NCBI GenBank assembly: GCA_030681555.1
Contig: JAUXRW010000122.1
Coordinates: 1-43,358, forward strand
Origin: Acidimicrobiales bacterium
Lineage (GTDB): Bacteria > Actinomycetota > Acidimicrobiia > Acidimicrobiales > VFJN01
Direction: 5' to 3'
Length of the DNA stretch: 43,358 nucleotides
Shown: one piece after another, positions 23,131 to 37,350 of the stretch
Layout of the letters: each line of letters opens with the position of its first letter
Numbering within the stretch: the stretch's first letter is position 1
Program-made: the position numbers and the translations under genes
Notes under the pieces: model-generated
What the model was told of the DNA's origin: nothing
Seen by the model: only the letters and a program-made list of their open reading frames with translations
Database searches by the model: none

Positions 23131-23583
23131 TTATCCCGCAGTGGTGTGTGCGACGAGGACGTCACAGGGGGCGTGGTGGGCGACCGAGGAGGCCACGCTC
23201 CCCATGATGAAGTGGGTGTGGCTGGTGAGGCCCTTCGAGCCGACGACGATCAGATCGGCGTCGAAGTCCTTGGCCGCCTCCAGGAGGACGCTCGAAGGGT
23301 CGCCGGAGATGGCCTGCACGACGACCTTCGGCGCGCCCGCCTCCTTTGCGATCGAACGGCCGCGCTGAGCCAGCTCCTCCGCCTGCACCCGGTCGGTGAG
23401 GGTGTGCCGGATGTCGGCGGGCACGGTGTCCATGACCGCCGACATGTCGGACGAACCAGGGGTGTAGGCGGTGACGATGATGACCCGTGCGCCGTCGATG
23501 GCGGAGAGCGCGCCGGCCCGGGCGACCGCTCGTTCGGCGGTCGGCGAGCCGTCGGTGCCGACCACGATGCTGGCGTAGGTCAC
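23131..23583 (-). CDS. Universal stress protein (UspA family)
   Basis: A 150-residue single Usp domain: TYASIVVGTDGSPTAERAVA at the N-terminus, GARVIIVTAYTP, AKEAGAPKVVVQAISGDPSS, and the ATP-binding loop DADLIVVGSKGLTSHTHFIM followed by GSVASSVAHHAPCDVLVAH. The pattern G-2X-G-9X-G(S/T) for nucleotide binding is close (GSKGLTSHTHFIMGS). It is read from the GTG at 23583 because that codon overlaps the cyclase TGA (GTGA). Usp proteins support survival under stress or dormancy; here the neighbour is a large signalling protein. Confidence 0.9.
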   Translation of the reverse strand: MTYASIVVGTDGSPTAERAVARAGALSAIDGARVIIVTAYTPGSSDMSAVMDTVPADIRHTLTDRVQAEELAQRGRSIAKEAGAPKVVVQAISGDPSSVLLEAAKDFDADLIVVGSKGLTSHTHFIMGSVASSVAHHAPCDVLVAHTTAG

Positions 23584-26500
23584 GGGTTCCCCTGGGCTGG
23601 CTCGAGAGCACGGATGTCGTTCCGAATCACGTCGAGGAACGCTAGCGGACGATCCCGGAAGCGCCCGAGAACCGCATCGAGGGTGGCGAGCGCGCCCGCG
23701 GTGTTTCCCTCCGCTCGCTGAGCGGCGGCCACGGCGCGCTGCGCGAGCACCCAGGTGCGGGCGCTCTCCCACGATCCGCTCAGGGCCTCAGCGGCCAGCC
23801 GGTGGGCGCGGTCCACCGCCCCGGACTCGGCGGCGATGATCGCCGACCACGCGACGGCACGGCGCCAGATGCTCGTGCGCACGTCTCCTGCCGCCAGGGC
23901 GATCGCCTCCTCGAGGAGCCGGCCGGCGTCCGGGTCGTCGGCCAGGTCACGGGCCCGCTTGGCGAGGACCACGAGCGCGCGGATCTCGCTGTCCCTGTCG
24001 CCGCCGCCGCTCCGCACGAGGGTCAGGGTGCGTCGCGCTTCTCGGGCTCCCCCGGTCTCGTCGCCGGCGTCGAGCAGCGTGGCCGCCAGCTCCGCCCGCA
24101 GCCGCGCCTCGGCACCGAGCGAGACCACCTGCTGTGCGATGGCCAGGCCCCGCTCCAGCGCGACGCGCGCCGCGCCGAGGTCCCCGGAGACCCGCTCCGC
24201 CATCCCCTGCACGAGGCGAGCGTTCGCCTCGCCCCACAGGTCGTCCAGCTCGGCGAAGGTGCGCAGCGCCGCGGCGGTGCACTGCCGCGCCGCCTCGACG
24301 TCGCCGGCCTCGAGCTGGCATCCGGCGAGGAGCACCAGCGAGGACCCGCCGCCCCAGGGGTCGCCGAGCCCACGCCCTGCCGCGAGGAGATTCTCGGCCA
24401 CGTGGCGGGCCTGGGCCACCCGCCCCTCCTGCCAGAGGCTGTTCCCAAGGATCTCGAAGCACCAGCTGAGGCCCACCCGGTCCTCGTCGGCCGAAAGCTC
24501 GCGCGCCGCCTCCCAGATGTGGCCTCTGGCGGCGGCGTGCTCGCCGACCAGGAACTCGCTCCAGGCGAGGCACTGGAGGGTGATCCCCCGGGGCCGGCCG
24601 GTCCGCTCGTCGAGCTCCCGCGCCCGCAGCAGCTTGGGCAGGGCGGCGCCCGGACGACCGGCCACCAGCTCGGCCCAGCCGTGGGTGCGCACCGAGCCCG
24701 CCTCGCCGGCGAGGTCGCCCGCCTCCTCCCATGCTTGTCGCCCGGCCTCGAAGCACGCGCTGGCCCGGTCGGTGTCGCCCAGCAGGCGGGCCACCAGACC
24801 GAGCCCCGTGTGGGCCTCGCCGGACGCCGCGGGGTCGGTGTTTCCCACCATCTGCAGGACCCCCGTCAGGACGGCGTGGGCATCGGCGAGCCGACGCAGG
24901 GCCAGCAGCGTGGCCCCGTGCTCGAGCGCCACCTCGACCTCGTCTCCATCGTCGACCAGGCGCAGCTCTCGGGCGCGCTGGTACCAGCGCGCCGCCTCGG
25001 CGGTCTCGTCCCGCTGGCGCGCCGCGCGGGCGGCGCGCACGAGGAAGCCGTTGGCAACGGGCGAGAGCGTCGGGCCCGGGTGGCCGAGCTCCCCACCGAG
25101 GGCCACGGCCCGCTCTACGTGGTGGGCGATCTCGGCGATGTGGGCGTCGTCGACGCGCCCGGCGGCTCCGTCGAGCAGCCACGTAGCGACGAGGGCGTGC
25201 TTCGTCGCCCGTTCGCCGAGCGGCACGGATGCGTACGCCGCGTCGCGCACCATCGCATGTCGGAAGGCGAGGGCAGGCTCGTCCGGTGCACCGTCCTCGG
25301 TCACCAGCAGCCCGCGGCGCGCGAGGTCCTCCAGGACGTCGTCGTCGACGGTCACGCCCAGCGCTCGCACCGCGGACGGCGTGAAGGACCGACCCACGAT
25401 CGCCGCGCCGTGCAGCACCGCCCGCTCGCCCGATGGCAGCCCGTCGAGCCGGGCGCCGAGGAGGGCCCGGGCGTCGTCGGGCAGGCCCGCTTCGTGTAGG
25501 TCTCGCACCGCCCGCCACCCGCCCTCGACGACCTCCAGCGAGCCGGTCTCGCGGAGGAACCGGACGAGCTGGTCGAGGAGCAGTGGGTTGCCGCCGGCGG
25601 CGGCCAGGATCTGCGCCTCCGGACGGGGCGCCAACGTGCCCATGTGCTGGTCCATCCCCGCGAGCGTGCGGTAGAGCAGCTCGTGGCTGGACGCGGCGTC
25701 GAGGGGCTGCAGTCGCAGCACGGCGTGGCGCATCCCCTGGCGGGTCGTGAGCCGGGGTCGCAGGTCCATCAGCTCGTCGCGCCCGACCACGATCACGGCG
25801 AGCGGGCGGCGGTCGGACGAGGAGCCGAGGCGCTCCAGCACCTCCAGCACCGCGACGTCGGCGAAGTGCGCGTCGTCGAGGAGGACCACGAGGGGCTCGT
25901 GATCGGCAGCCGCCTCCAGGACGAGGCGGGCGGCCGTCGTCAGCTCGTTCGCCAGCCGGCTGCGCGCCGGCCCGGCGTCGATCGGAGGCGCGTCCGGCAG
26001 GTCGGTGAGGCCGAGCAGCTGCAGAGTCCGCTGGGTGAGGTACCGGCGGTCCCCCTGACCGGACGGACCGAGCTCGGCGATCCGGGCCTCGACGGCCGCT
26101 CGCTGTGCAGCCGCGGGGAGGTCGTCGTCCACGCCGAGGGTGGCACGCAGCACGGCCGAGAGCGGAGCGAGCGGCCCCTCCGACCCGTAGGGAGCGCAGT
26201 TCGCCACGACCAGCCGGGGCGCCAGGCCCCGCCGGCGCAGGGCGGGCCCCAGCTCGCTGACGAGGCGGGTCTTGCCCAGCCCCGCCTCCCCCACCACGGA
26301 CACCAGCCAGGGCCCGTGCCCCGATGCGGCGTCGGCGACGGTCCCCACCAGCTCCGCCAGCTCCTCGTCGCGGCCGAGCATGGGGGTGAGGCGGCCAGGT
26401 GCGAGGCGCTCCCCCGGGCGGTGGCGGGTCCGGAGGGCCGGGTGGGCCACCACCGGCTCACGGCGGCCGCGAAGCACCCGGGAGGTCGGCGGCCCGAAGG

Positions 26501-27053
26501 CGATCGCGGCCCGGGTGGCGAGGTGGGTCCGCTCCCCCACCAGGACGGTGCCGCGCTCGGCCACGCCGACCAGGCGGTGGGCGGTGTTCACGGTGTCGCC
26601 CGTGACCGTATAGGCGCCGCCCGGGCCCACCGGCCCGGCCAGCACCTCGCCCGTGTTGATGCCGACGCGCATCTCGAGCGCGCCGTCCATGCGGTCCAGG
26701 GCCTCCAGGAGGGCCAGCGCGGCTCGCACGGCCCGCTCGGGATCGTCCTCGTGCGCGCGCGGCGCGCCCCAGACGGCCATGAGCTCGTCCCCGATGATCT
26801 TGTCGACGGTCCCGCCATGCGCCTCGATGACCGGGACGAGCACCCCGAAGCACGAGTCGAGGAGCTCCTTCACAGCCTCGGGGTCCCGCCCCTCGGCCAT
26901 CGTGGTGAAGCCCGCCAGGTCCGCAAACGCGACCGTGACGACCCGGCGCTCGCCGGTGGCGACGGCGCCGAGGGAGACGCCGCAGGACGGGCAGAACCTG
27001 GCCGACGGGGGCGGGGTGGCCCCGCAGGCGGGACAGCCGTGCGCCGTCACCAC
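23580..27053 (-). CDS. Class III adenylate cyclase - AAA ATPase - TPR signalling protein
   Basis: A 1157-aa multidomain regulator. Residues 7-25 form a zinc ribbon (CPACG, CPSCG). Residues ~36-210 are a class III nucleotide cyclase: VVTVAFADLAGFTTMAEGRD (first metal Asp), VDKIIGDELMAVWGAPRAHE (second), and MRVGINTGEVLAGPVGPGGA then YTVTGDTVNTAHRL. Residues ~230-600 are a STAND-type ATPase with Walker A GEAGLGKTRLV and Walker B LVVLLDDAHFAD. The remainder is TPR-like helical repeats. The GTG at 27053 was used (27050 also possible). The architecture is typical of actinobacterial cAMP-linked sensors. It overlaps the Usp start and follows DUF4193 by 7 bases. Confidence 0.85.
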   Translation of the reverse strand: MVTAHGCPACGATPPPSARFCPSCGVSLGAVATGERRVVTVAFADLAGFTTMAEGRDPEAVKELLDSCFGVLVPVIEAHGGTVDKIIGDELMAVWGAPRAHEDDPERAVRAALALLEALDRMDGALEMRVGINTGEVLAGPVGPGGAYTVTGDTVNTAHRLVGVAERGTVLVGERTHLATRAAIAFGPPTSRVLRGRREPVVAHPALRTRHRPGERLAPGRLTPMLGRDEELAELVGTVADAASGHGPWLVSVVGEAGLGKTRLVSELGPALRRRGLAPRLVVANCAPYGSEGPLAPLSAVLRATLGVDDDLPAAAQRAAVEARIAELGPSGQGDRRYLTQRTLQLLGLTDLPDAPPIDAGPARSRLANELTTAARLVLEAAADHEPLVVLLDDAHFADVAVLEVLERLGSSSDRRPLAVIVVGRDELMDLRPRLTTRQGMRHAVLRLQPLDAASSHELLYRTLAGMDQHMGTLAPRPEAQILAAAGGNPLLLDQLVRFLRETGSLEVVEGGWRAVRDLHEAGLPDDARALLGARLDGLPSGERAVLHGAAIVGRSFTPSAVRALGVTVDDDVLEDLARRGLLVTEDGAPDEPALAFRHAMVRDAAYASVPLGERATKHALVATWLLDGAAGRVDDAHIAEIAHHVERAVALGGELGHPGPTLSPVANGFLVRAARAARQRDETAEAARWYQRARELRLVDDGDEVEVALEHGATLLALRRLADAHAVLTGVLQMVGNTDPAASGEAHTGLGLVARLLGDTDRASACFEAGRQAWEEAGDLAGEAGSVRTHGWAELVAGRPGAALPKLLRARELDERTGRPRGITLQCLAWSEFLVGEHAAARGHIWEAARELSADEDRVGLSWCFEILGNSLWQEGRVAQARHVAENLLAAGRGLGDPWGGGSSLVLLAGCQLEAGDVEAARQCTAAALRTFAELDDLWGEANARLVQGMAERVSGDLGAARVALERGLAIAQQVVSLGAEARLRAELAATLLDAGDETGGAREARRTLTLVRSGGGDRDSEIRALVVLAKRARDLADDPDAGRLLEEAIALAAGDVRTSIWRRAVAWSAIIAAESGAVDRAHRLAAEALSGSWESARTWVLAQRAVAAAQRAEGNTAGALATLDAVLGRFRDRPLAFLDVIRNDIRALEPAQGNP

Positions 27054-27704: not shown

Positions 27705-28343
27705 TTACGGCGCCGCGGAGGTGCTGGGCGGGGTGGCGGCAGGCGCCGTCGTCGGCGTGGCCGTGGCCCCCGGGTCCGCCCCCGCCTCCGCGAAGTTGAG
27801 GTCGGTGACCTGGTCGACCTTCCACTCGCCGTCGACGCGCACGAACGTCAGCAGCACGTAGATGTCGAAGAGCGTGCGGGGGCCACCGGCGCCGTCGCGC
27901 TCGACGTCGGCCACGACGACGGCCTCGGCCCGCTCCTCGTCGATCTCGGAGACGTAGACCTCCTTGACGAACCCGCGCGAGGTGGCCTGCACCTCGGTGA
28001 TGAGCTGCGCCAGGCCTTGGTCGAAGGCGTCTTCGTATTCCCCCCGGAACGAGCCGGTGGCGAGGGCCAGCACCCCGTCGCGGTGTGCGTCGGGGTCGTT
28101 GAAGTCGTAGGTGAGCAGCGCCTCGCCCACCGCTCCGGCGGCGCTGCGGAGCGAGTCCGAACCCCCGGCGCCGTCGTCGTTGCCCGCCGCGAGGACGCCG
28201 AGCACCGCCGCCGCGACACCGAACAGCACGGCCAGGCTGATCGCCAGGACGAGGAGGGGTGTGCGCGTGCCCGATCGCAGCTCGGCGTCCCCGGTGGAGA
28301 CAGCGGGCGACGAAGACGCGTCGTCCGAGGGCGCGTCGGTCAT
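27705..28343 (-). CDS. Mce-associated membrane protein
   Basis: A 212-residue protein: acidic N-terminal tail, one membrane helix (PLLVLAISLAVLFGVAAAVL), then an extracytoplasmic domain of alpha-beta type (GEALLTYDFNDPDAHRDGVL, SRGFVKEVYVSEIDEERAEA, LFDIYVLLTFVRVDGEWKVD). This is the layout of Mas/OmamA-type accessory proteins that stabilise Mce transporters. The C-terminal 30 residues are low-complexity Ala/Thr/Pro. The ATG overlaps the MceF stop (ATGA), so it is the last gene of the Mce operon. Confidence 0.8.
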   Translation of the reverse strand: MTDAPSDDASSSPAVSTGDAELRSGTRTPLLVLAISLAVLFGVAAAVLGVLAAGNDDGAGGSDSLRSAAGAVGEALLTYDFNDPDAHRDGVLALATGSFRGEYEDAFDQGLAQLITEVQATSRGFVKEVYVSEIDEERAEAVVVADVERDGAGGPRTLFDIYVLLTFVRVDGEWKVDQVTDLNFAEAGADPGATATPTTAPAATPPSTSAAP

Positions 28344-29629
28344 CGTGGCCGCGATGCGGGCCGCTGGGTGCACCAGGCGGCCAGAGCGCTGGCCGCCAGG
28401 AACAGGGCCAGCGCCGCCATCGGCCTCCCGCCTGTGTTCGGAAGCTCTCCGTCGGCACCGAGAGCATCGGCCACGCCGGACGCGGGGCGAGGGGCGGGCC
28501 GCGGATTCGACGCGGCGCTCGAGCCCCCGGCGGGGGCGGCGGTCGCCGCGCCAGAGGGCGCTCCGGACGCCAACGCGGCGGGCTGGAGCGTCGAGGCGCA
28601 CGGCGACACGGTGGGCACGACCGGCAGGCTCGGACGGGGGACGTAGATCTCGGCCGGTTCGCCGTCCAGCGGCATGATGAGGTTGACCCGGATCCACGGC
28701 CCGTCCGGCTCCTGGTCAACGGCGTTGAACACGTACCCGAACGCCGTGGGGGCGTTCAGGAGCAGCGCTTCCACGTCCTCCAGGGACTCGGCATCGCCTG
28801 TGGTGCGGATGGTGGGCGCCAGGTCGGTGAGCAGGCAGTCCAGGTTCTGCTTCTGGTCGGCGACGAGGTCGGCGGTGGTGCGGAGGAACCCGGGCCCGAT
28901 CTCCAAGAGGTTGCGGAGGTCGCCCTGCGCGTTGCGCAACGACTCGGCCACGGCCCGGAGGTTGCTGATCGACCGACCGAGGCTGAGGCGGTGGTCGGCC
29001 AGCACGCGGGTGACCCGGGTGCTGTTCTCGGCGAGCCGATCCAGCTGGTCGGTGCGTTCCACGAAGGTCTGCGTCAGCGTGTCGAACGAGGTCGTGATGT
29101 CGCGGAGGGCCTGGCCTCGCCCGCTCAGGGCGAGCGACAGCTCGTGGAGGAGCCCGCCGGCCGCATCCGGGTCGATGCTCGAGATCAGGGCACTGGCCGA
29201 CCGCAGGAGCTCGGAGAACTCGAGCGGCACGGTCGTGCGCTCGATCGGCACGTTGTCGCCGGGCTCGATGCTGTCGCCGTCTTCGTCGAATTCCTCCGGC
29301 GGGACGAAGTCGATGTACGGCTCACCGATGGCGGACTTCCGGAAGATGCGGGCGATGGAACCGGCGGGGATGTCCTTGCCGCGGTCGATCTTCATCGTGA
29401 CCGAGACGCCCCCGTCGGTGCGCTCCACGCCGGACACGTTGCCGTAGTGGACGCCGAGGTAGGTCACCTCGGCGTTGGCCTTCACGCCCGCCGCCTGTGC
29501 GAACTCGCCGGAGATCTTGTACGGCCGCTCGACGGCATCGAGGCTGACGATGTTCCCCAGGGCCCAGAGGATCATCACGCCGAACACGACGTTGAAGAAG
29601 ATGAGGTTGATCAGGACCCGACGGCTCAT
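28340..29629 (-). CDS. mceF: Mce-family protein, MceF position, with LPxTG-type sorting signal
   Basis: A 429-aa sixth Mce subunit. An N-terminal anchor helix (INLIFFNVVFGVMILWALGN) is followed by an MCE/MlaD domain (YKISGEFAQAAGVKANAEVT, VSVTMKIDRGKDIPAGSIAR, SAIGEPYIDFVPP) and a long helical region to about residue 300 (SSIDPDAAGGLLHELSLALS). Residues ~345-395 are a Pro/Ala/Gly/Ser linker. The tail is LPNTG (396-400), a hydrophobic stretch (MAALALFLAASALAAW) and a basic end (RPASRPR): a textbook sortase signal. Mce subunits are normally anchored only at the N-terminus. ATG start at 29629 overlaps the MceE stop. Only the sorting signal is unusual, and it is seen directly. Confidence 0.9.
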   Translation of the reverse strand: MSRRVLINLIFFNVVFGVMILWALGNIVSLDAVERPYKISGEFAQAAGVKANAEVTYLGVHYGNVSGVERTDGGVSVTMKIDRGKDIPAGSIARIFRKSAIGEPYIDFVPPEEFDEDGDSIEPGDNVPIERTTVPLEFSELLRSASALISSIDPDAAGGLLHELSLALSGRGQALRDITTSFDTLTQTFVERTDQLDRLAENSTRVTRVLADHRLSLGRSISNLRAVAESLRNAQGDLRNLLEIGPGFLRTTADLVADQKQNLDCLLTDLAPTIRTTGDAESLEDVEALLLNAPTAFGYVFNAVDQEPDGPWIRVNLIMPLDGEPAEIYVPRPSLPVVPTVSPCASTLQPAALASGAPSGAATAAPAGGSSAASNPRPAPRPASGVADALGADGELPNTGGRPMAALALFLAASALAAWCTQRPASRPR

Positions 29630-30600
29630 GCCCCGTCCTCCAGCGGCGGAAGCTCGAACCAGCCGTAGACCTGCGCGAAGTCGTCCGGGATGCCGAGCGG
29701 CGTTTTTCGCGTGAACTCCGCGAGCCAGTCCACGAGGATCCCCACCTCTTCCCGGCGCTCCGCCACGAGGGCGAGGATCGCATCGAGCTGCTGCACCTGT
29801 CGCTCCACGTCCGCCCGGTAGGGCTCGAACACGAGCTCGTTCTGAGCCTGGGTCATGCGCGTCAGGTCCCGGAGCGTCTGAAGGGTCAGCTCACGGTTGT
29901 CGGCCAGCACCTCGGTGGTGCGAGACAGGTTGACCAGGAGGGCGTCGATCCGCTCCGAGCCGCCGGCGAGGGTCGCGCTGGCCCGGTCGAGGCCGTCGAT
30001 GATGCTGACGATGTTGCCCGTCTGGTCGGCGAGGGTGGAGCTCACCGCCGAGAGGCTGTCGATGAGGCTCCCCAGCTCGGCGGCCCGCCCGCCGAAGCCG
30101 ACGCCACCGGTTTCGATCATCGTGGCCAGGTCCTCGTGGGCCACGCCCGCAAGCACGTTGACGGCCTCCTCGGCGACGAACTCCAGCTCGGGGGCCTCGG
30201 CCGTGCAGCTGATGCTCGACTCGTGGACGAGGATCGCCGGATCGGCGTCGCACGGACCTTCCTCGCCCTCGCGGGGCGCCCGGATCTCGACGAACTTCTC
30301 GCCCAAGAGCGAGGTGGTGCGGAGCACGGCGGTGGAGTTGCCCGGCAGCTCCAGCCCCTCCTTGACCTTCATGGTGACGGTGGCCTTGTAGTCGTCGGTC
30401 AGCTCGATCTTGTCGATCGAGCCCACCCGCACGTCCGCGACCTGCACGGAGTGGCCGGACACGAGGTCGCCGACGTCGTCGAACGTGGCCGTGAGCTGGA
30501 CCGGCCCCTCCACCCGCCCGGGGAGGGTGCACCCCGCAGCGGCCAGGCCCACCGCGAGGACGGCCAGGCCGGCGGCGCGCAGGCGGGGCGAGCTCCTCAC
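29626..30600 (-). CDS. mceE: Mce-family lipoprotein, MceE position
   Basis: 324 residues from the GTG at 30600, overlapping the stop of the upstream gene (GTGA). A signal peptide ends in a lipobox-like LAAAGC with Cys24, as in the mycobacterial LprK/MceE lipoproteins. The MCE domain follows: VQLTATFDDVGDLVSGHSVQ, VADVRVGSIDKIELTDDYKA, and TSLLGEKFVEIRAP. The helical part (LASVSSTLADQ-like, SLIDSLSAVSSTLADQTGNI) would form the tunnel needle. The C-terminus IPDDFAQVYGWFELPP is short. It would be fixed in the membrane by lipid and form one wall of the six-subunit channel. Confidence 0.9.
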   Translation of the reverse strand: MRSSPRLRAAGLAVLAVGLAAAGCTLPGRVEGPVQLTATFDDVGDLVSGHSVQVADVRVGSIDKIELTDDYKATVTMKVKEGLELPGNSTAVLRTTSLLGEKFVEIRAPREGEEGPCDADPAILVHESSISCTAEAPELEFVAEEAVNVLAGVAHEDLATMIETGGVGFGGRAAELGSLIDSLSAVSSTLADQTGNIVSIIDGLDRASATLAGGSERIDALLVNLSRTTEVLADNRELTLQTLRDLTRMTQAQNELVFEPYRADVERQVQQLDAILALVAERREEVGILVDWLAEFTRKTPLGIPDDFAQVYGWFELPPLEDGA

Positions 30601-31811
30601 GAGCCGACCCCCAGCAGGGTGCCGACGGCGTCGCCGAGGAGGTCGGCACCGGACTCGACGACGCCCCGGCCATCCCGGGTAGCGGGCGGCGCCTGGTCGG
30701 GTGCGCCGAGCAGGGCGAGGAAAGAGGCAATGGGCGCCGAGGAGCCGGCGTCGGTGATGCGGGCGGGCGTGGCCTCCGAGGCGACGTCGCCGGCCACGCC
30801 GCACTCGGCCATGATCGGCAGGCAGATCGAGGGCAGCCCGAGCTGTCCGAGAAGGAGGTCGACGAGCTCCGGCACCAACGGCGAGAAGTTGTTGCGCAGG
30901 TTGAGCGAGTTGGTGGCGGGGTCGTACGCGTCCCGCAGGCCTGCGGTCAGAACACCGCCGGACTCGAGGAGCAGGTCGACCGACGCCAGGTTGGCGTCGA
31001 TGATCGCGGCGGCATCGGTGAGGGTGCTGATGTCGGCGCGCAGCTCCGTAGCGTGCTCGCCGACCAGCCCGAGGCCCTCCTGCGAGAGCGTGGCGAGGCC
31101 GCTGACCAGCTCCTCGATGCTCTGCCGCTCATCGGCCAGCACCTGGCTGGCCGACGCGAACGCGTCGAGCACCTCGCCGAGCTGCTGCTCGCGGGTGACC
31201 AGGGTGGCGGTGAGCTGGTCGAAGCTGTCGACGATCCGGGCGAGTGCGTCGTCCTTCTCGGCGAAGGTGGAGACGAGGTCGGACAGCGAACCGAGCGTGC
31301 TGTTGAGCGCCGAGCCGTTGCCCCGCAGGTCCTCGTCGAGGTTGGTCACCAGGCGTCCGATGCCGTCGGGATCGAGGCTGTCGAGGAACTCCTTGATGGC
31401 GGCGAGGGCCTCGTCCGGCTCCACGGGGATGATGGTGTGGTCCTGGTCGATGACGTGCCCGTCCTCGGCGGCCTCCATCCCCTCCTTGAACGCGGGTGAC
31501 AGCTGGATGTAGCGCTCGCCGATCAGCGACTGCGGCACGATCTGGGCAAAGCCGTCCGCGGGCACCTTGATGTCACCCGGGATCGACATCTCGACCCGCA
31601 CGCGGTCGCCGTCGACGGCCACGTCGGTCACGGTGCCGGCGGGGAGGCCGAGCACGCGGACGTCGGAGCTGGCGAAGACCGAGACGGCGCGAGGGAAGTA
31701 GGCGGTGACCTCGTAGCTGTCGCCGCCCCCTCCCACGAAGGGCACGCTGCACGCGGGGAGCACGAGGCCGACGGCGAGGAGCGCCGCGAGGGCGAGGCGC
31801 GGACGCGTCAC
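30597..31811 (-). CDS. mceD: Mce-family lipoprotein, MceD position
   Basis: 404 residues from the GTG at 31811. The signal peptide LALAALLAVGLVLPACSVP holds a clear lipobox LPAC with Cys21, so this subunit also looks like a lipoprotein; in mycobacteria usually only MceE is. The MCE domain has YEVTAYFPRAVSVFASSDVR, LGLPAGTVTDVAVDGDRVRV and PQSLIGERYIQLSP. The long helical region includes LDSLDPDGIGRLVTNLDEDL and VLADERQSIEELVSGLATLS. The C-terminal ~80 residues are variable. The longer open frame upstream was rejected because it covers the end of MceC out of frame. Confidence 0.9.
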   Translation of the reverse strand: MTRPRLALAALLAVGLVLPACSVPFVGGGGDSYEVTAYFPRAVSVFASSDVRVLGLPAGTVTDVAVDGDRVRVEMSIPGDIKVPADGFAQIVPQSLIGERYIQLSPAFKEGMEAAEDGHVIDQDHTIIPVEPDEALAAIKEFLDSLDPDGIGRLVTNLDEDLRGNGSALNSTLGSLSDLVSTFAEKDDALARIVDSFDQLTATLVTREQQLGEVLDAFASASQVLADERQSIEELVSGLATLSQEGLGLVGEHATELRADISTLTDAAAIIDANLASVDLLLESGGVLTAGLRDAYDPATNSLNLRNNFSPLVPELVDLLLGQLGLPSICLPIMAECGVAGDVASEATPARITDAGSSAPIASFLALLGAPDQAPPATRDGRGVVESGADLLGDAVGTLLGVGS

Positions 31812-32869
31812 AGTCCCGCCGCCCCCTGCACGTCCTCGATGATCCCGATCAGGTCGGGGCCCAGCGCGGCCACGTAGATGTCCTGCCACGGGCCGTGCGT
31901 GCCGGCGAGGGACTGGCCGTAGAAGGCGGGGCCGGCGATGGCCAGCGCGCTGTTGAGATCAGGGAGGTTCTGGTCGACCGTGCGGAGCGTCGGGTGGAGA
32001 TCGCTCAGGATCGCGTCGAGCTGGGCGCGGTTGTCGGAGATGAGCCGCGAGAGCGCCTTCACCGCCGCGCTCCCCTCGCCCAGGGCAGTCGACAGCTGAT
32101 CGCGGCGCTGCACCAGGAAGTCGAGGATCGTGCGGGAGCTGTCGATGAGCTGGACCAGCGTCTGGTCCTTGGCCGCCAAGTTCGCCCCCAGCTCGTCGGC
32201 CTCGTCGAGCAGGGCCTCGAGCTCCCCTTCCCGCTCGGTCAGCGCGGCCGACACCTCGCCGATGCCGTTGATCAGGTCGGTCACCGTGGCCCGCTTGCCC
32301 TCGGTGACGTCCGCCAGCTGGTTCACGAGCTGGTTGAGGCGGTCGTTGTCGGTCTGCTCGATTCGCTCCGTCGCCTCCCGCGTGAGGTCGAAGACGTCCA
32401 CGGCGGTGCGGGTCCGCTGCTCGCAGATCTCCTCCTCGCCGTTCGCGGCGGGTGTGCAGTCCTGGTACGGGATCGCCCGCTGCTCCCGCGGGAGGTCCTC
32501 CATCAGCTCCTCGCCGGTGGCGGCGTTCGTGATGCGGACGAACTTCGAGCCCAGGAGGGTCTCGAGGGCAAGGTCGGCGCCGGCGCCCTCGCGGATGTCG
32601 ACCCCGCTGTTCACCACCCACTCCACCCGGACGAGCCCCTCGTCCCGGTCGGCGTGGATGCCGGTGACGCGACCGACCTTCACGCCCGCCACCTTCACGT
32701 CGTCGCCGCTGCGGAGCCCGGCGGCGTCGGTGAAGGTGCCCTCCATCTCGTAGGTGTCCTCGAGGAGGTGGAGCAGGCCGACCATGAAGGCGAAGCCGGT
32801 GATGGCCCCGATGATCAGCAGCGAGACGAGGCCCACGGCGTACGGGTTGCGGTCCCGGAAGGACCTCAT
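31808..32869 (-). CDS. mceC: Mce-family protein, MceC position
   Basis: 353 residues with an N-terminal anchor helix (VGLVSLLIIGAITGFAFMVG), an MCE domain (YEMEGTFTDAAGLRSGDDVK, VAGVKVGRVTGIHADRDEGL, LETLLGSKFVRIT) and then a long helical part (DNDRLNQLVNQLADVTEGKR, SRLISDNRAQLDAILSDLHP). A Cys pair (QDCTPAANGEEEIC) sits between the MCE domain and the helices, as in other MceC proteins. ATG start at 32869, overlapping the MceB stop. Confidence 0.9.
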   Translation of the reverse strand: MRSFRDRNPYAVGLVSLLIIGAITGFAFMVGLLHLLEDTYEMEGTFTDAAGLRSGDDVKVAGVKVGRVTGIHADRDEGLVRVEWVVNSGVDIREGAGADLALETLLGSKFVRITNAATGEELMEDLPREQRAIPYQDCTPAANGEEEICEQRTRTAVDVFDLTREATERIEQTDNDRLNQLVNQLADVTEGKRATVTDLINGIGEVSAALTEREGELEALLDEADELGANLAAKDQTLVQLIDSSRTILDFLVQRRDQLSTALGEGSAAVKALSRLISDNRAQLDAILSDLHPTLRTVDQNLPDLNSALAIAGPAFYGQSLAGTHGPWQDIYVAALGPDLIGIIEDVQGAAGL

Positions 32870-33972
32870 CCGCCCACCGCCTTCTCCAGGAGGGAGGTGA
32901 TGGCGGTGGCCCCGGTGGTGGGCGCCGGCGTGAACAGCTGCGCCGCCGTCGACAGGCCGGTGATCGGGTCACTGGTGGGGCACCCCGCCTCGGACGAGGT
33001 CGGTGGTCCGACGAACGCACAGAGGATCTTCTGGTTGAGGAACTCGCCCCGGTTGCCGGCGCGGAACACGGCTGCGTTGGCCTCGGCGAACCCGGCGAGG
33101 AAGACGTCGAGCTCGGGCAGGCGGCCCACGGCCGTCTCCGTCACCTGGGCCAGGCTGGCCAGGAGCTGATCGAGCTCGGTGGCGTTGTTGGTCAGGATCC
33201 CGTTGAGGTCCGTGCCGAACGCCCCGAGCTCGTTCAGAGCCGCATCGAGGGTGGCGGTGTTGTCCCCGAACGTGTCCGCCAGGCTCACGAGGTTCTGCAG
33301 CATCGCCTCGATCTGGGCGTCCCTGCGGTTGAGCGTGCTGGCGACGGTGTCGAGGTCGCCCACCAGCCGCTGGATCGCCTCGTCGCGGGTGGCCAGGCCT
33401 CGGGCCAGCACGGCGAGATCGTCGAGCGCCTGCCCTACCTTGTCCTCTCGACCGTCGAGCGCCTGGGTGAGCGTCTCGAGCAGCTGGTTGACCTGCGACG
33501 GATCGATGGCGCCGACGATCGGGCCGAGGCGGTTGAACAGCTGACCGAGGTCGACGACCTCGACGTTCTTGCAGACCTCGGCGCGAGGGCACACTTCGTC
33601 GCCGTCCTGGAACGCCTCGGGCGACTTGCCCGGGTACAGGTAGAGGTAGCGCTGGCCGATGAGGTTGCGCCACCGGATGGCGGCGTAGGAGTCCTTGGGG
33701 ATGTTGTCATGGTCGTCGGCGACCTGGAACTCGACGACCGCCTTGCCGGCCTCGGTGCTCACGGCGGTCACCTTGCCGACCACGACGCCGGCGACCTTGA
33801 CGTTGTCGTTGACGAGCAGCCCGGTGACGTCGTCGAACGTGGCGCTGAGGCGGTAGTTGTCGCGGTTCAGCGGGTCGCGCACGTCGAGGTTGCCGATGGT
33901 GAAGGCCAGGTAGCCCGTGAAGATGAGGCAGATGACCACGAAGGCGCCGAACTTCACGGCGACGCGGATCAT
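32866..33972 (-). CDS. mceB: Mce-family protein, MceB position
   Basis: 368 residues: helix VVICLIFTGYLAFTIGNLDV, an MCE domain (YRLSATFDDVTGLLVNDNVK, VAGVVVGKVTAVSTEAGKAV, IRWRNLIGQRYLYLYPG), and the extended helical region (GPIVGAIDPSQVNQLLETLT, DEAIQRLVGDLDTVASTLNR). C-terminal cysteines (ILCAFVG, EAGCPTS) may pair, as in MceB homologues. ATG at 33972; the upstream MceA stop overlaps it by ATGA. Confidence 0.9.
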   Translation of the reverse strand: MIRVAVKFGAFVVICLIFTGYLAFTIGNLDVRDPLNRDNYRLSATFDDVTGLLVNDNVKVAGVVVGKVTAVSTEAGKAVVEFQVADDHDNIPKDSYAAIRWRNLIGQRYLYLYPGKSPEAFQDGDEVCPRAEVCKNVEVVDLGQLFNRLGPIVGAIDPSQVNQLLETLTQALDGREDKVGQALDDLAVLARGLATRDEAIQRLVGDLDTVASTLNRRDAQIEAMLQNLVSLADTFGDNTATLDAALNELGAFGTDLNGILTNNATELDQLLASLAQVTETAVGRLPELDVFLAGFAEANAAVFRAGNRGEFLNQKILCAFVGPPTSSEAGCPTSDPITGLSTAAQLFTPAPTTGATAITSLLEKAVGG

Positions 33973-35117
33973 GCGCCCAGCACCCGTCGGAGCAGGTCGC
34001 TGATGTCACCATCAGCGGTGGCGACCTCGGGCGTGTCGAGCAGCGGTGCCTCCGGCACGACCGGCGGAGGGCCTGTGGCGGGGAGCGCAGCTCCGGTGCC
34101 GTCGCGACCCGGCCCACCCGCGCACGGGAGGAGAGCACAGGCCTCCTTACCGACGAGTGCCTTCACGGCCGCCATCAGGGTGCCGTCACCCACCCGGATC
34201 CGGATGACCGAGGACAGCGACTGCAGGTACTGCCGGAGCCCGGTGACCACGGGCATGACCTGGTCGCGGTGCTCGAACAGCACCTCGACGGTGTCGCTGC
34301 CCTCGTTGAGCGCGGCGTCGATGAAGGGCTCGTTGCTCCGCAGCAGGTCGGCGACGTCGTTCGAGAGCCGTCCCGTCTGCTGGAGGAGGTCGATGAGCTC
34401 GTCCTCCCGCTCGTTGATCACCGGCAGGGCCGAGTTGGCGGCGTCGCCGAGGGCGAGGAGGTCGTCGGCGTCGTCCGCCAGCTCGTCGGAGAGGGCGGCG
34501 AAGTCCTGGAGGAACTGCCGGGTGTTGTCGACGTTGTCGGCGAACACCTCGCTGAGCTCCGCCCCGTTCACCAACGACCGGTTGATCGTGTCGCCCAGGC
34601 CGTCCCCGGCGTCGGCCAGGGCGCTCAGGACCGTCATCAGCTCGTCGGGATCGATGGCCTGCAGCAGCGGATGGGTGTCGGCCAGCACCTCTTCGAGCTC
34701 GAAGCCGCCCTCGGTCCGCTCCGGGTCGAGGTGGTCCCCCGCCTCGTAGAACGGTCCCTTCGCCTCGTCCGCGTCGGACAGATCGATGTCGACGAACTTC
34801 TCGCCGAACAGTGTCTTGGCACGGATGCGCGCGGTCGCCGCCTTCGGCACCTCCTCGCCATCCTTGATGGTCAGGGTGACCTGGGCCTGCCCGTCCACGA
34901 GGTCGATGCGCCGGACCTCGCCGATGTTCACCCCCCGCACCTTCACGTCCGAACCCGGAAGGAGCCCCTGCCCGGCGGCGGAGAACGTGCCGATCAGCCG
35001 GTAGCCGCCGTCGTAGGCGCCGAAGGCCGCCTTCACGCCGACGCTGATCGCGCAGAGGAGCAGCACGAGCGCGATTGCGCCCGTGAGCATGTTCTGGCGT
35101 CGCTGCGTGATCGTCAC
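33969..35117 (-). CDS. mceA: Mce-family protein, MceA position
   Basis: 382 residues, first of the six substrate-binding subunits. It has an N-terminal helix (MLTGAIALVLLLCAISVGVK), then the MCE domain (YRLIGTFSAAGQGLLPGSDV, VRGVNIGEVRRIDLVDGQAQ, AKTLFGEKFVDIDLS) and helical repeats (LQAIDPDELMTVLSALADAG). The last 60 residues are Pro-rich and variable (ALLPCAGGPG, PATGPPPVVPEAP). A GTG start at 35117 is used, with GAGGGG upstream, 7 bases from the YrbE stop. The six Mce proteins are thought to form a hexameric tunnel carrying lipids such as sterols or fatty acids to the YrbE pair. Confidence 0.9.
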   Translation of the reverse strand: MTITQRRQNMLTGAIALVLLLCAISVGVKAAFGAYDGGYRLIGTFSAAGQGLLPGSDVKVRGVNIGEVRRIDLVDGQAQVTLTIKDGEEVPKAATARIRAKTLFGEKFVDIDLSDADEAKGPFYEAGDHLDPERTEGGFELEEVLADTHPLLQAIDPDELMTVLSALADAGDGLGDTINRSLVNGAELSEVFADNVDNTRQFLQDFAALSDELADDADDLLALGDAANSALPVINEREDELIDLLQQTGRLSNDVADLLRSNEPFIDAALNEGSDTVEVLFEHRDQVMPVVTGLRQYLQSLSSVIRIRVGDGTLMAAVKALVGKEACALLPCAGGPGRDGTGAALPATGPPPVVPEAPLLDTPEVATADGDISDLLRRVLGA

Positions 35118-35124
35118 GTGCCCC

Positions 35125-35982
35125 TCACCCTGTGAGGCTCACCGTGTTGCCGCCGCCCCAGAAGATGAGCGACAGGACCAGGTTCAGAACCACCACGCTC
35201 ACGATCGACAGCCGGATGGCTCGGCCCACCGCCACACCGACGCCCGCCGGGCCGCCCGTGGCGTAGTAGCCGTAGTAGCAGTGGATGAGGGCCACGACGA
35301 TGGCGAAGATGCCGGCCTTGATCAGGCTGTACACGACGTCGATCAAAGGGAGGTACAGGCGGAAGTAGTAGTCGTACACGCCGTTGGAGAGGCCGAAGAA
35401 CTGGGTGGAGACGACCTTCGTCGCGTAGAAGCTGGCGAAGAGCGAGATGAGGTAGAGCGGGATGATCGCCAGCAGGGCGGCCACCACCCGTGTGGCCACG
35501 AGGTAGGCCTTCGACGGCACCGACATGACCTCGAGGGCGTCGATCTCCTCGGAGATCCTCATGGCGCCCAGCTCCGCGGTGAAGCCGGCGCCCACCTGGG
35601 CGGCGAAGGCGACACCTGCGATGAGCGGGGTCACCTCGCGGGTGTTGGCGAAGCTGCCGATCAGGCCGGTGAAGGCCTCGGCACCGATCTGCTCGAGGCC
35701 CTTGAAGCCCTGGAGTCCGACCTCGGTGCCGGTGAAGAACGACATGGAGAAGATCACGAAGATCATGCCCCCGCCGACGATCATCGCCCCGGCGCCGATC
35801 GTGATGTCGGACACGAGGTTGAAGATCACGTTTCGGTACTTCAGGCGCACGATGATCTGCGTGAAGATCTCGTAGAACACCTGCGCGTAGAAGAGCAGCT
35901 GCTTGCCGACGTCCTCCAGCAGGTCGCCGATGGCGCGGCCGGTCTTGCGGACGGGGCGGGAGACGCGGGTGACGGCAGTCAT
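35125..35982 (-). CDS. MlaE/YrbE permease, second subunit (YrbEB position)
   Basis: 285 residues with at least five membrane helices (AGAMIVGGGMIFVIFSMSFF, LIAGVAFAAQVGAGFTAELG, ATRVVAALLAIIPLYLISLF, IKAGIFAIVVALIHCYYGYY, IVSVVVLNLVLSLIFWGGGN). The family coupling motif is present: MRISEEIDALEVMSVPSKAY, which contacts the ATPase. An extra basic N-terminal stretch (~40 residues) precedes the first helix. Its ATG overlaps the TGA of the first permease by one base (TGATG). Together the two form the membrane core of the lipid importer. Confidence 0.93.
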   Translation of the reverse strand: MTAVTRVSRPVRKTGRAIGDLLEDVGKQLLFYAQVFYEIFTQIIVRLKYRNVIFNLVSDITIGAGAMIVGGGMIFVIFSMSFFTGTEVGLQGFKGLEQIGAEAFTGLIGSFANTREVTPLIAGVAFAAQVGAGFTAELGAMRISEEIDALEVMSVPSKAYLVATRVVAALLAIIPLYLISLFASFYATKVVSTQFFGLSNGVYDYYFRLYLPLIDVVYSLIKAGIFAIVVALIHCYYGYYATGGPAGVGVAVGRAIRLSIVSVVVLNLVLSLIFWGGGNTVSLTG

Positions 35983-36752
35983 CAGAACTTCTGCGGCACC
36001 AGCGCGAAGTACAGCGACGTCATCACGAAGTTGGCGAAGAAGATGAGGATGAAGGTGATGACGACGGCCTGGTTCACGGCGTCGCCGACGCCCTTCGGCC
36101 CACCCTTGGCGTAGATGCCCTTGTAGCAAGCGACCATCGCTGCGATGAAGCCGAACACCCAGGCCTTGGCCAGCGAGGAGTAGAGGTCGGGCAGTTGCAC
36201 GAGCGAGGTGAAGCCCTGGAAGTAGGCCCCCGGGGTGACCTTCTGGATGACGACGTTGAAGAAGTACCCGCCGCCGATGCCGGCCACGGACACGAGCGAC
36301 ACGAGGAAGAGCCCCACGGTGCTGGCCGCCCACAGGCGGGGCGTGACCAGGCGGTGCACCGGGTTGACCGACATGACCTCCATGGCGGCGAGCTCGTCAC
36401 GGATCTTCCGGGCGCCGAGATCCGCGGTCATGGCCGACCCGCCGGCCCCGGCGATGAGCAGCGCAGTGGCCACCGGGGACGCCTCTCGCACGATGGCGAG
36501 CACCATCGCGGCGCCCGTCGTCGACTCGGCGCCGAGCTGACGCGAGAAGGCGCCCACGTGGAGGGCGATGACCGCTCCGAACGGGATCGAGATGAGCACC
36601 GAGGGGATGCTCGTCACCTTCGCGATGAACCAGCACTGGCGTAGGTACTCCTTCCACCAGTGCCGCACGTCCGGCGTCCGGCGCAGCCCCTCCAGGGAGA
36701 TCGCGAAGAGGTTCCCGGTCTCGCGGAGGACGAACTGGACCTTGCCGATCAT
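35982..36752 (-). CDS. MlaE/YrbE permease, first subunit (YrbEA position)
   Basis: 256 residues with the MlaE fold: VTSIPSVLISIPFGAVIALH, VREASPVATALLIAGAGGSA, the coupling motif KIRDELAAMEVMSVNPVHRL, WAASTVGLFLVSLVSVAGIG, and a C-terminal helix FILIFFANFVMTSLYFALVP. ATG at 36752, 13 bases after the stop of the damaged ATPase frame. This is the first intact gene of the transporter. Confidence 0.93.
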   Translation of the reverse strand: MIGKVQFVLRETGNLFAISLEGLRRTPDVRHWWKEYLRQCWFIAKVTSIPSVLISIPFGAVIALHVGAFSRQLGAESTTGAAMVLAIVREASPVATALLIAGAGGSAMTADLGARKIRDELAAMEVMSVNPVHRLVTPRLWAASTVGLFLVSLVSVAGIGGGYFFNVVIQKVTPGAYFQGFTSLVQLPDLYSSLAKAWVFGFIAAMVACYKGIYAKGGPKGVGDAVNQAVVITFILIFFANFVMTSLYFALVPQKF

Positions 36753-36765
36753 CGCGGGCGCCCGC

Positions 36766-37350
36766 TCACACCGTGACGATGTCGCGGTCGGCGCCCTTGG
36801 GACCCTCGGACGTGAGGCGCTTCACCTCGCGCTCCACCAGATCCTTCTCGATGTCGCTCTGCTCGGTCGCCATCTCGTCATGCCGATGGGTCCGAGCGCC
36901 CGGCCGGACAGGAAATGCTTGATGATCGGATCCTTGGATGATCGGATCCTTGGATGCCCGCATACCGACCATGTCCGCCTTGCCGAGGACGATCTGGCGG
37001 ATCTCCTTCCCCGTCTTCCGGGTGTGCTCCCGCAACGGGAAGGCCATGCTGTCGAACATGGTCATCGAACCGAACAGTGCGCCGTCCTGGAACAGGACGC
37101 CGAACTTCCGGCGCACGCGGTAGAGGTCCCGACCGCCCATGGCGACGGTCTCCTCGCCCTCGACCCAGATCTCGCCGGAGTCGGGCCGGAGCAGGCCGAT
37201 GATGTTCTTCAGGAGGACCGACTTGCCCGTGCCGGACGGGCCCATGACCCCGGTGATCTTGCCGCGCGGAACGTCGAAGGTGATGTCCTTCAGGACGGTG
37301 TGGTTGCCAAACGGCTTCGTGACACTGCGAAGCGAGATGACTGCGTCCAG
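36766..37350 (-). pseudogene. Mce ATPase (Mkl/MlaF-type), internally deleted
   Basis: The N-terminal half is normal: VISLRSVTKPFGNHTVLKDI, Walker A GPSGTGKSVLLKN, Q-loop FGVLFQDGALFGSMTMFDSM, then GKADMVGMR. Next the gene jumps straight to the family's C-terminal end, ASKDPII, with the expected KHFLSGRALGPIGM readable only in another frame; the final stretch EMATEQSDIEKDLVEREVKR is back in frame. The signature LSGG, Walker B, D-loop and H-loop, about 100 residues, are missing. A 16-bp tandem duplication (36921-36952) and a one-base loss explain the shift and its repair. No ATG, GTG or TTG is in frame at the usual start: CTG at 37350 stands in its place. It cannot hydrolyse ATP on its own. Confidence 0.8.
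36921..36952. repeat. 16-bp perfect tandem duplication inside the ATPase gene
   Basis: GATGATCGGATCCTTG occurs twice head to tail (36921-36936, 36937-36952) and GATG begins a third copy. It shifts the ATPase frame by one base and sits close to the deletion point. Confidence 0.9.

Follow-up and report, generated by a model that had tools for sequence, protein, structure and literature searches.

Mce machines are known chiefly from diderms and from mycolate-bearing bacteria, where their outer end contacts the outer membrane. In the structure of mycobacterial Mce1, ~310 Å long, the N-terminal helices surround the permease and a portal built from the C-termini of all six Mce proteins stands at the outer end (PMC9882608). 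Phylogenomic work on mce operons describes the C-termini as variable and Pro-rich and notes an RGD motif (PMC1810536). A text search of PMC9882608 and PMC1810536 for LPXTG returned nothing, and no sorting signal is reported in the accessible text of either. Among sortases, the class E enzyme SrtE1 of Streptomyces coelicolor prefers LAxTG and accepts Pro as well at P3 (PMC5148588), and the Rhodococcus equi genome is reported to hold no sortase-type proteins beyond the srt islands, one peptidase excepted (PMC2947987). We found no description of a sortase-anchored or LPXTG-bearing Mce protein in the open-access literature searched, in line with the earlier note on this DNA, which knew of none.

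We analysed a stretch of 43,358 nucleotides (the window) from an Acidimicrobiales bacterium (contig JAUXRW010000122.1), which contains an mce operon. Judged by sequence, we put at roughly 0.7 the probability that a sortase joins its MceF, via LPNTG, to peptidoglycan and so tethers the Mce tunnel at its outer end.

The mce operon

The genes of the operon, all on the minus strand, are as follows.

28340..29629, minus strand: mceF, 429 aa, final Mce gene of the operon (translation; Pfam; TIGR00996)
29626..30804, minus strand: mceE, open reading frame with the true start probably inside (Pfam; C-terminal helix and sorting signal absent)
30597..31889, minus strand: mceD, open reading frame with the true start probably inside (Pfam; C-terminus inspected)
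31808..32869, minus strand: mceC (Pfam; C-terminus inspected)
32866..33972, minus strand: mceB (Pfam; C-terminus inspected)
33969..35117, minus strand: mceA, with an internal LPATG lacking a hydrophobic tail (Pfam; C-terminus inspected)
35125..36333, minus strand: MlaE/YrbE permease gene, open reading frame with the true start inside (Pfam, 205 bits)
35982..36752, minus strand: second MlaE/YrbE permease gene (Pfam, 229 bits)
36766..37349, minus strand: MceG-type ATPase gene, damaged (middle missing; frame change; repeat)

All six Mce frames and both permease frames are open. In the ATPase gene, which heads the operon, the signature, Walker B and H-loop are gone and the reading frame shifts, with a 16-nt direct tandem repeat (36921-36952) at the junction. 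This damage may be real or may be a misassembly (the assembly has 162 contigs). Unless a different ATPase steps in, the damage may leave this strain without a working Mce system. It has no bearing on the relatives, in which the ATPase orthologues are whole. The lost ATPase motifs and the frame change would also fit a decaying operon in which no working MceF is made and its sorting signal is vestigial in this strain. We regard this as very improbable, since the six Mce and two permease frames are open, misassembly at the repeat is a simple alternative, and the relatives with their whole ATPases are untouched. Moreover, mycobacterial mceG is unlinked and one MceG serves several Mce systems. In the Acidimicrobiia L226, L227, L229, L071, L074 and L076, by contrast, the mce operon has an MceG-type ATPase gene at its head. 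Downstream of the operon in the window, 23580-27053 (minus strand) encodes a 1157-aa protein of the large-regulator type, with nucleotide cyclase, AAA ATPase and TPR parts.

Domain structure of MceF

Translation of 28340-29629 (minus strand) gave a 429-aa MceF with the N-terminus MSRRVLINLIFFNVVFGVMILWALGNIV and the C-terminus GADGELPNTGGRPMAALALFLAASALAAWCTQRPASRPR, followed by the stop codon. Pfam MlaD (residues 36-111, 54 bits) and Mce4_CUP1 (119-275, 57 bits) both matched above their cut-offs, and NCBIfam TIGR00996 matched at 179 bits against a cut-off of 140.5. The gene is the sixth Mce gene downstream of two yrbE genes, in a Mce gene order identical in relatives. Position and domain matches thus agree with its earlier description as the last Mce protein. 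By sequence match, the closest solved chain is Mycobacterium smegmatis Mce1F (PDB 8fed_F, E 1.2e-17). The AlphaFold2 model (mean pLDDT 66, MCE domain modelled well) has a helix at 3-33, the MCE domain, needle helices at 138-302, strands at 304-313, a disordered region and a second terminal helix at 403-421. The first of these helices, hydrophobic and present in both sequence and model, supplies an export signal and is the N-terminal membrane anchor that the earlier note had assigned.

29546..29617, minus strand: N-terminal membrane helix, residues 5-28 (sequence; model helix 3-33)
29297..29524, minus strand: MCE (MlaD) domain, residues 36-111 (Pfam; pLDDT >90 across most)
28724..29218, minus strand: needle-type helices, residues 138-302 (AlphaFold2; match to Mce1F)
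28691..28720, minus strand: putative portal strand, modelled as two short strands at residues 304-313 (AlphaFold2; analogy with Mce1, PMC9882608)
28445..28687, minus strand: disordered Pro/Ala/Gly-rich linker, residues 315-395 (sequence; pLDDT mostly <50)
28430..28444, minus strand: LPNTG sortase motif, residues 396-400 (sequence; orthologue conservation)
28370..28420, minus strand: C-terminal hydrophobic stretch, residues 404-420 (sequence; model helix 403-421)
28343..28369, minus strand: basic tail TQRPASRPR (sequence)

The sorting signal

On translation, LPNTG occupies residues 396-400 (codons 28444-28430), exact to the base where it had first been placed. The hydrophobic stretch that follows, MAALALFLAASALAAWC, has a mean hydropathy of 2.06 and is 17 residues long (404-420), rather than the 16 first counted, and the tail TQRPASRPR holds three Arg. 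A 51-residue segment with abundant Pro, Ala, Gly and Ser separates the last conserved Cys (344) from the motif, close to the Pro/Ala-rich linker of about 50 residues noted before. The C-terminus is, by its sequence, a complete three-part sortase signal (LPNTG, hydrophobic stretch and basic tail), so that the central observation of the earlier note stands with only a length corrected. The Pfam anchor model PF00746 missed its cut-off on this tail (E = 4.9, 9.6 bits against 20). Several other evident LPxTG tails of the same genome are also below the cut-off, so the model is insensitive here, and a match to it is no strict defining feature of a sorting signal.

Among the six Mce subunits of the window and of the operons compared, a hydrophobic or sorting-type tail is limited to MceF; no C-terminal helix was found in MceA to MceE of the window or of the relatives' operons L066-L076 (some of them partial). 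The internal LPATG of MceA (33969-35117, minus strand) lies ~35 residues from the C-terminus, fails the three-part test and is evidently a chance motif. Its occurrence in the same operon speaks for an alternative in which the MceF tail is only a second membrane anchor, as in other MceF, the LPNTG is incidental and uncut, and the protein loops back with both ends in the cytoplasmic membrane. We consider this unlikely, on grounds given with the comparisons below.

Motif conservation in MceF orthologues

Whole genomes of the same order, together with GTDB contigs, supplied the MceF orthologues (42-55 % identical). A single-protein scan of genome contigs found none and a profile scan succeeded; a family-by-family search for further orthologues added no species. 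In 10 of 17 orthologue species, L[PA]xTG stands at one fixed position directly before the C-terminal helix, and these ten span six families of one order. The signal sought in other Acidimicrobiia Mce operons therefore recurs, while seven of the 17 orthologues are without it, so the motif is not universal even inside its clade. The isolate EGI L10123 (L066) is one that lacks the motif. Its forms are LPNTG in the window, LPATG (L025, L026, L029, L031), LPVTG (L028), LAATG (L027) and LATTG (L032, L073, L092). In motif-bearing orthologues the hydrophobic stretch starts within a few residues of the motif and the preceding linkers hardly align. Tail charge is weak (net -3 to +1) in the LPxTG orthologues L029, L031, L032 and L025, a point against their use as sortase substrates. 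TPATG (L076) and ISASG (L030), found in motif-less clade members, look like decayed motifs.

When each protein's own linker was shuffled, 0.05 motifs were expected at that place against the 10 observed in the 17 orthologues, whose related rows are not independent though six families are represented. When 101 MceF were placed on a tree, every motif-bearing row fell within a single 18-row clade (SH-aLRT 96), with 5 changes on the tree against 9.7 with shuffled labels, and none of the 83 MceF outside the clade carries L[PA]xTG. Judging from these comparisons, the motif is not there by chance. The shuffling result and the confinement to one clade both weigh against an incidental LPNTG in a simple membrane anchor, which the seven motif-less clade members would favour.

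The eighteenth row of the clade, L037 (G046), has a broken mceF frame and was left out of the tail counts, which gives the 17 orthologues. Its mceF (G046:C4) breaks after ~149 codons and continues into an antisense MceG-type ATPase fragment; it is either a pseudogene or a misjoin.

C-terminal helix and linker

A C-terminal hydrophobic helix, mostly with a basic tail, is present in 92 of the 101 MceF, and 82 of these are without LPxTG, among them nearly all the MceF of Nonomuraea, Actinomadura, Planomonospora and relatives. The general helix was seen in rows L077-L143 (Streptosporangiales), L015, L033-L036 and L038-L049. The accessible text of the mce papers PMC9882608 and PMC1810536 makes no mention of such a helix in MceF. 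Since most helix-bearing MceF are motif-less, the C-terminal membrane anchor is probably the older part and LPxTG a later addition to it; with the helix general in MceF of these actinobacteria, only the LPxTG step would be new. The second Mce operon of the genome (contig C16) was considered as a second case and rejected, its MceF having the helix and basic tail and no motif.

The prevalence of motif-less helices supports a tail that serves as anchor only. Against it stands linker length, counted between the last strand and the helix, with a median of 59 residues in motif-bearing MceF against 91 in motif-less MceF with the helix. The shorter value is about the minimum for a return to the membrane along a needle as long as that of Mce1, although the motif-less members of the clade have short linkers too.

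The same geometry bears on a different role for the cut. The C-termini of Mce1 make up its portal, which is the distal end of the ~310 Å complex (PMC9882608), so a C-terminus tied to the cytoplasmic membrane by a short linker would be at odds with the assembled state. Sortase cleavage could then release MceF rather than anchor it, with the freed C-terminus letting the portal rise and any wall bond being a by-product or hydrolysed, a reading that we hold to be quite unlikely. Its further step, that the helix holds MceF during assembly before the cut at LPNTG, seems just as improbable. Release would agree with the lower sequence conservation of the hydrophobic tail in LPxTG members. At equal core divergence, tail identity above shuffled was +0.11 in these members and that of the C-terminal helix +0.19 to +0.32 in Streptosporangiales MceF (50-75 % core-identity bins, few pairs); in the 40-50 % bin the two groups did not differ. 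The lower identity in the 50-75 % bins fits a part that gets cut off, as it would be in wall anchoring too. However, most helix-bearing MceF manage without LPxTG, and sortases normally transfer their substrate to lipid II, which would make release without bonding unusual.

Sortases and other LPxTG proteins

Whether the genome encodes a sortase at all had been left as a decisive point for wall anchoring. We found five PF04203 (sortase) matches in the genome of the window, of which a class E sortase on contig C55 (174 bits against a curated cut-off of 160) and a class D sortase on C162 exceed curated cut-offs. An LPDTG protein (L018, G000:C162) is encoded immediately upstream of, and adjoining, the class D gene. 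For the matches on C52 and C122, class E is the closest class, and both have retained the catalytic Cys. On C130, a protein of sortase fold (L005, 1120-2415, minus strand; L021, G000:C130) lacks the catalytic Cys and, it seems, the usual His as well; it adjoins LPATG and LPLTG proteins and is a probable dead sortase. A search for a sortase gene beside the mce operon found none anywhere on the window's contig, which counts against wall anchoring. At least seven proteins of the genome besides MceF have LPxTG tails, at least eight with MceF included.

Sortases were present in 15 of 16 related genomes tested, and in all tested genomes with an LPxTG-MceF (seven relatives and the window's own). A strict tie of motif loss to sortase loss was ruled out, as motif-less genomes have sortases too. 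When the LP or LA dialect of MceF was set against the other substrates of each genome, the other tails were nearly all LPxTG, with one LAETG. The swaps between LPxTG and LAxTG in MceF fit the tolerance of SrtE1 for Ala or Pro at P3. The presence of sortases of a class that can accept L[PA]xTG also counts against a tail that is never cut.

Proposed tethering of MceF

Under wall tethering, the N-terminal membrane helix would export MceF and the hydrophobic stop would hold its C-terminus. A housekeeping sortase, most likely of class E, would cut LPNTG between Thr and Gly, and the chain would pass via lipid II to peptidoglycan. The N-terminal helix would keep MceF in the cytoplasmic membrane as one of six needle subunits on the YrbE permease, while the flexible C-terminal linker would exit, wall-bonded, at the outer (portal) end; such an exit is expected if the complex is built like Mce1. 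Each six-subunit Mce tunnel would then have one covalent wall tether. Acidimicrobiia are not known to make mycolates, and the tether would give the importer's mouth a set position inside the cell wall where there is no mycolate outer membrane. Cleavage, wall bonding, sortase class, geometry and positioning role are what we infer for MceF, which would be held at both ends, by its membrane helix and by the wall, much as the earlier note had supposed.

The lipid importer is thus probably wall-bonded. We also lean, with less assurance than for the tether itself, towards the view that in one branch of Acidimicrobiia the ancestral MceF helix became a sortase signal, so that each tunnel, instead of docking to a mycolate outer membrane, has one subunit joined to peptidoglycan at its outer mouth. 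If true, a wall tether on one defined subunit would place the outer end of Mce in actinobacteria without an outer membrane, and MceF would be, as far as the open-access search reaches, the first subunit of such a transporter with a sortase anchor.

Comparison with known systems

Like the window, mycobacterial Mce1 has mceA-F after two yrbE genes, and Mce1F (PDB 8fed/8fee/8fef) shares the N-terminal helix, MCE domain and needle helices of our MceF. Mce1 faces a mycolate outer membrane, whereas the MceF of the window has a sortase signal at its C-terminus. A second difference from the mycobacterial structure is the C-terminal helix that MceF proteins generally have. The MceF of Streptosporangiales (Nonomuraea, Actinomadura, Planomonospora and others) are 30-37 % identical to that of the window and have the disordered linker, C-terminal helix and basic tail, but their linkers are longer and none carries LPxTG or LAxTG. 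Finally, class E substrates such as the Streptomyces chaplins and Actinoplanes SspA resemble MceF in having L[PA]xTG, a hydrophobic stretch and a basic tail in genomes with class E sortases. Those substrates are surface or spore-coat proteins, whereas MceF has an N-terminal membrane helix and belongs to an ABC-type lipid importer.
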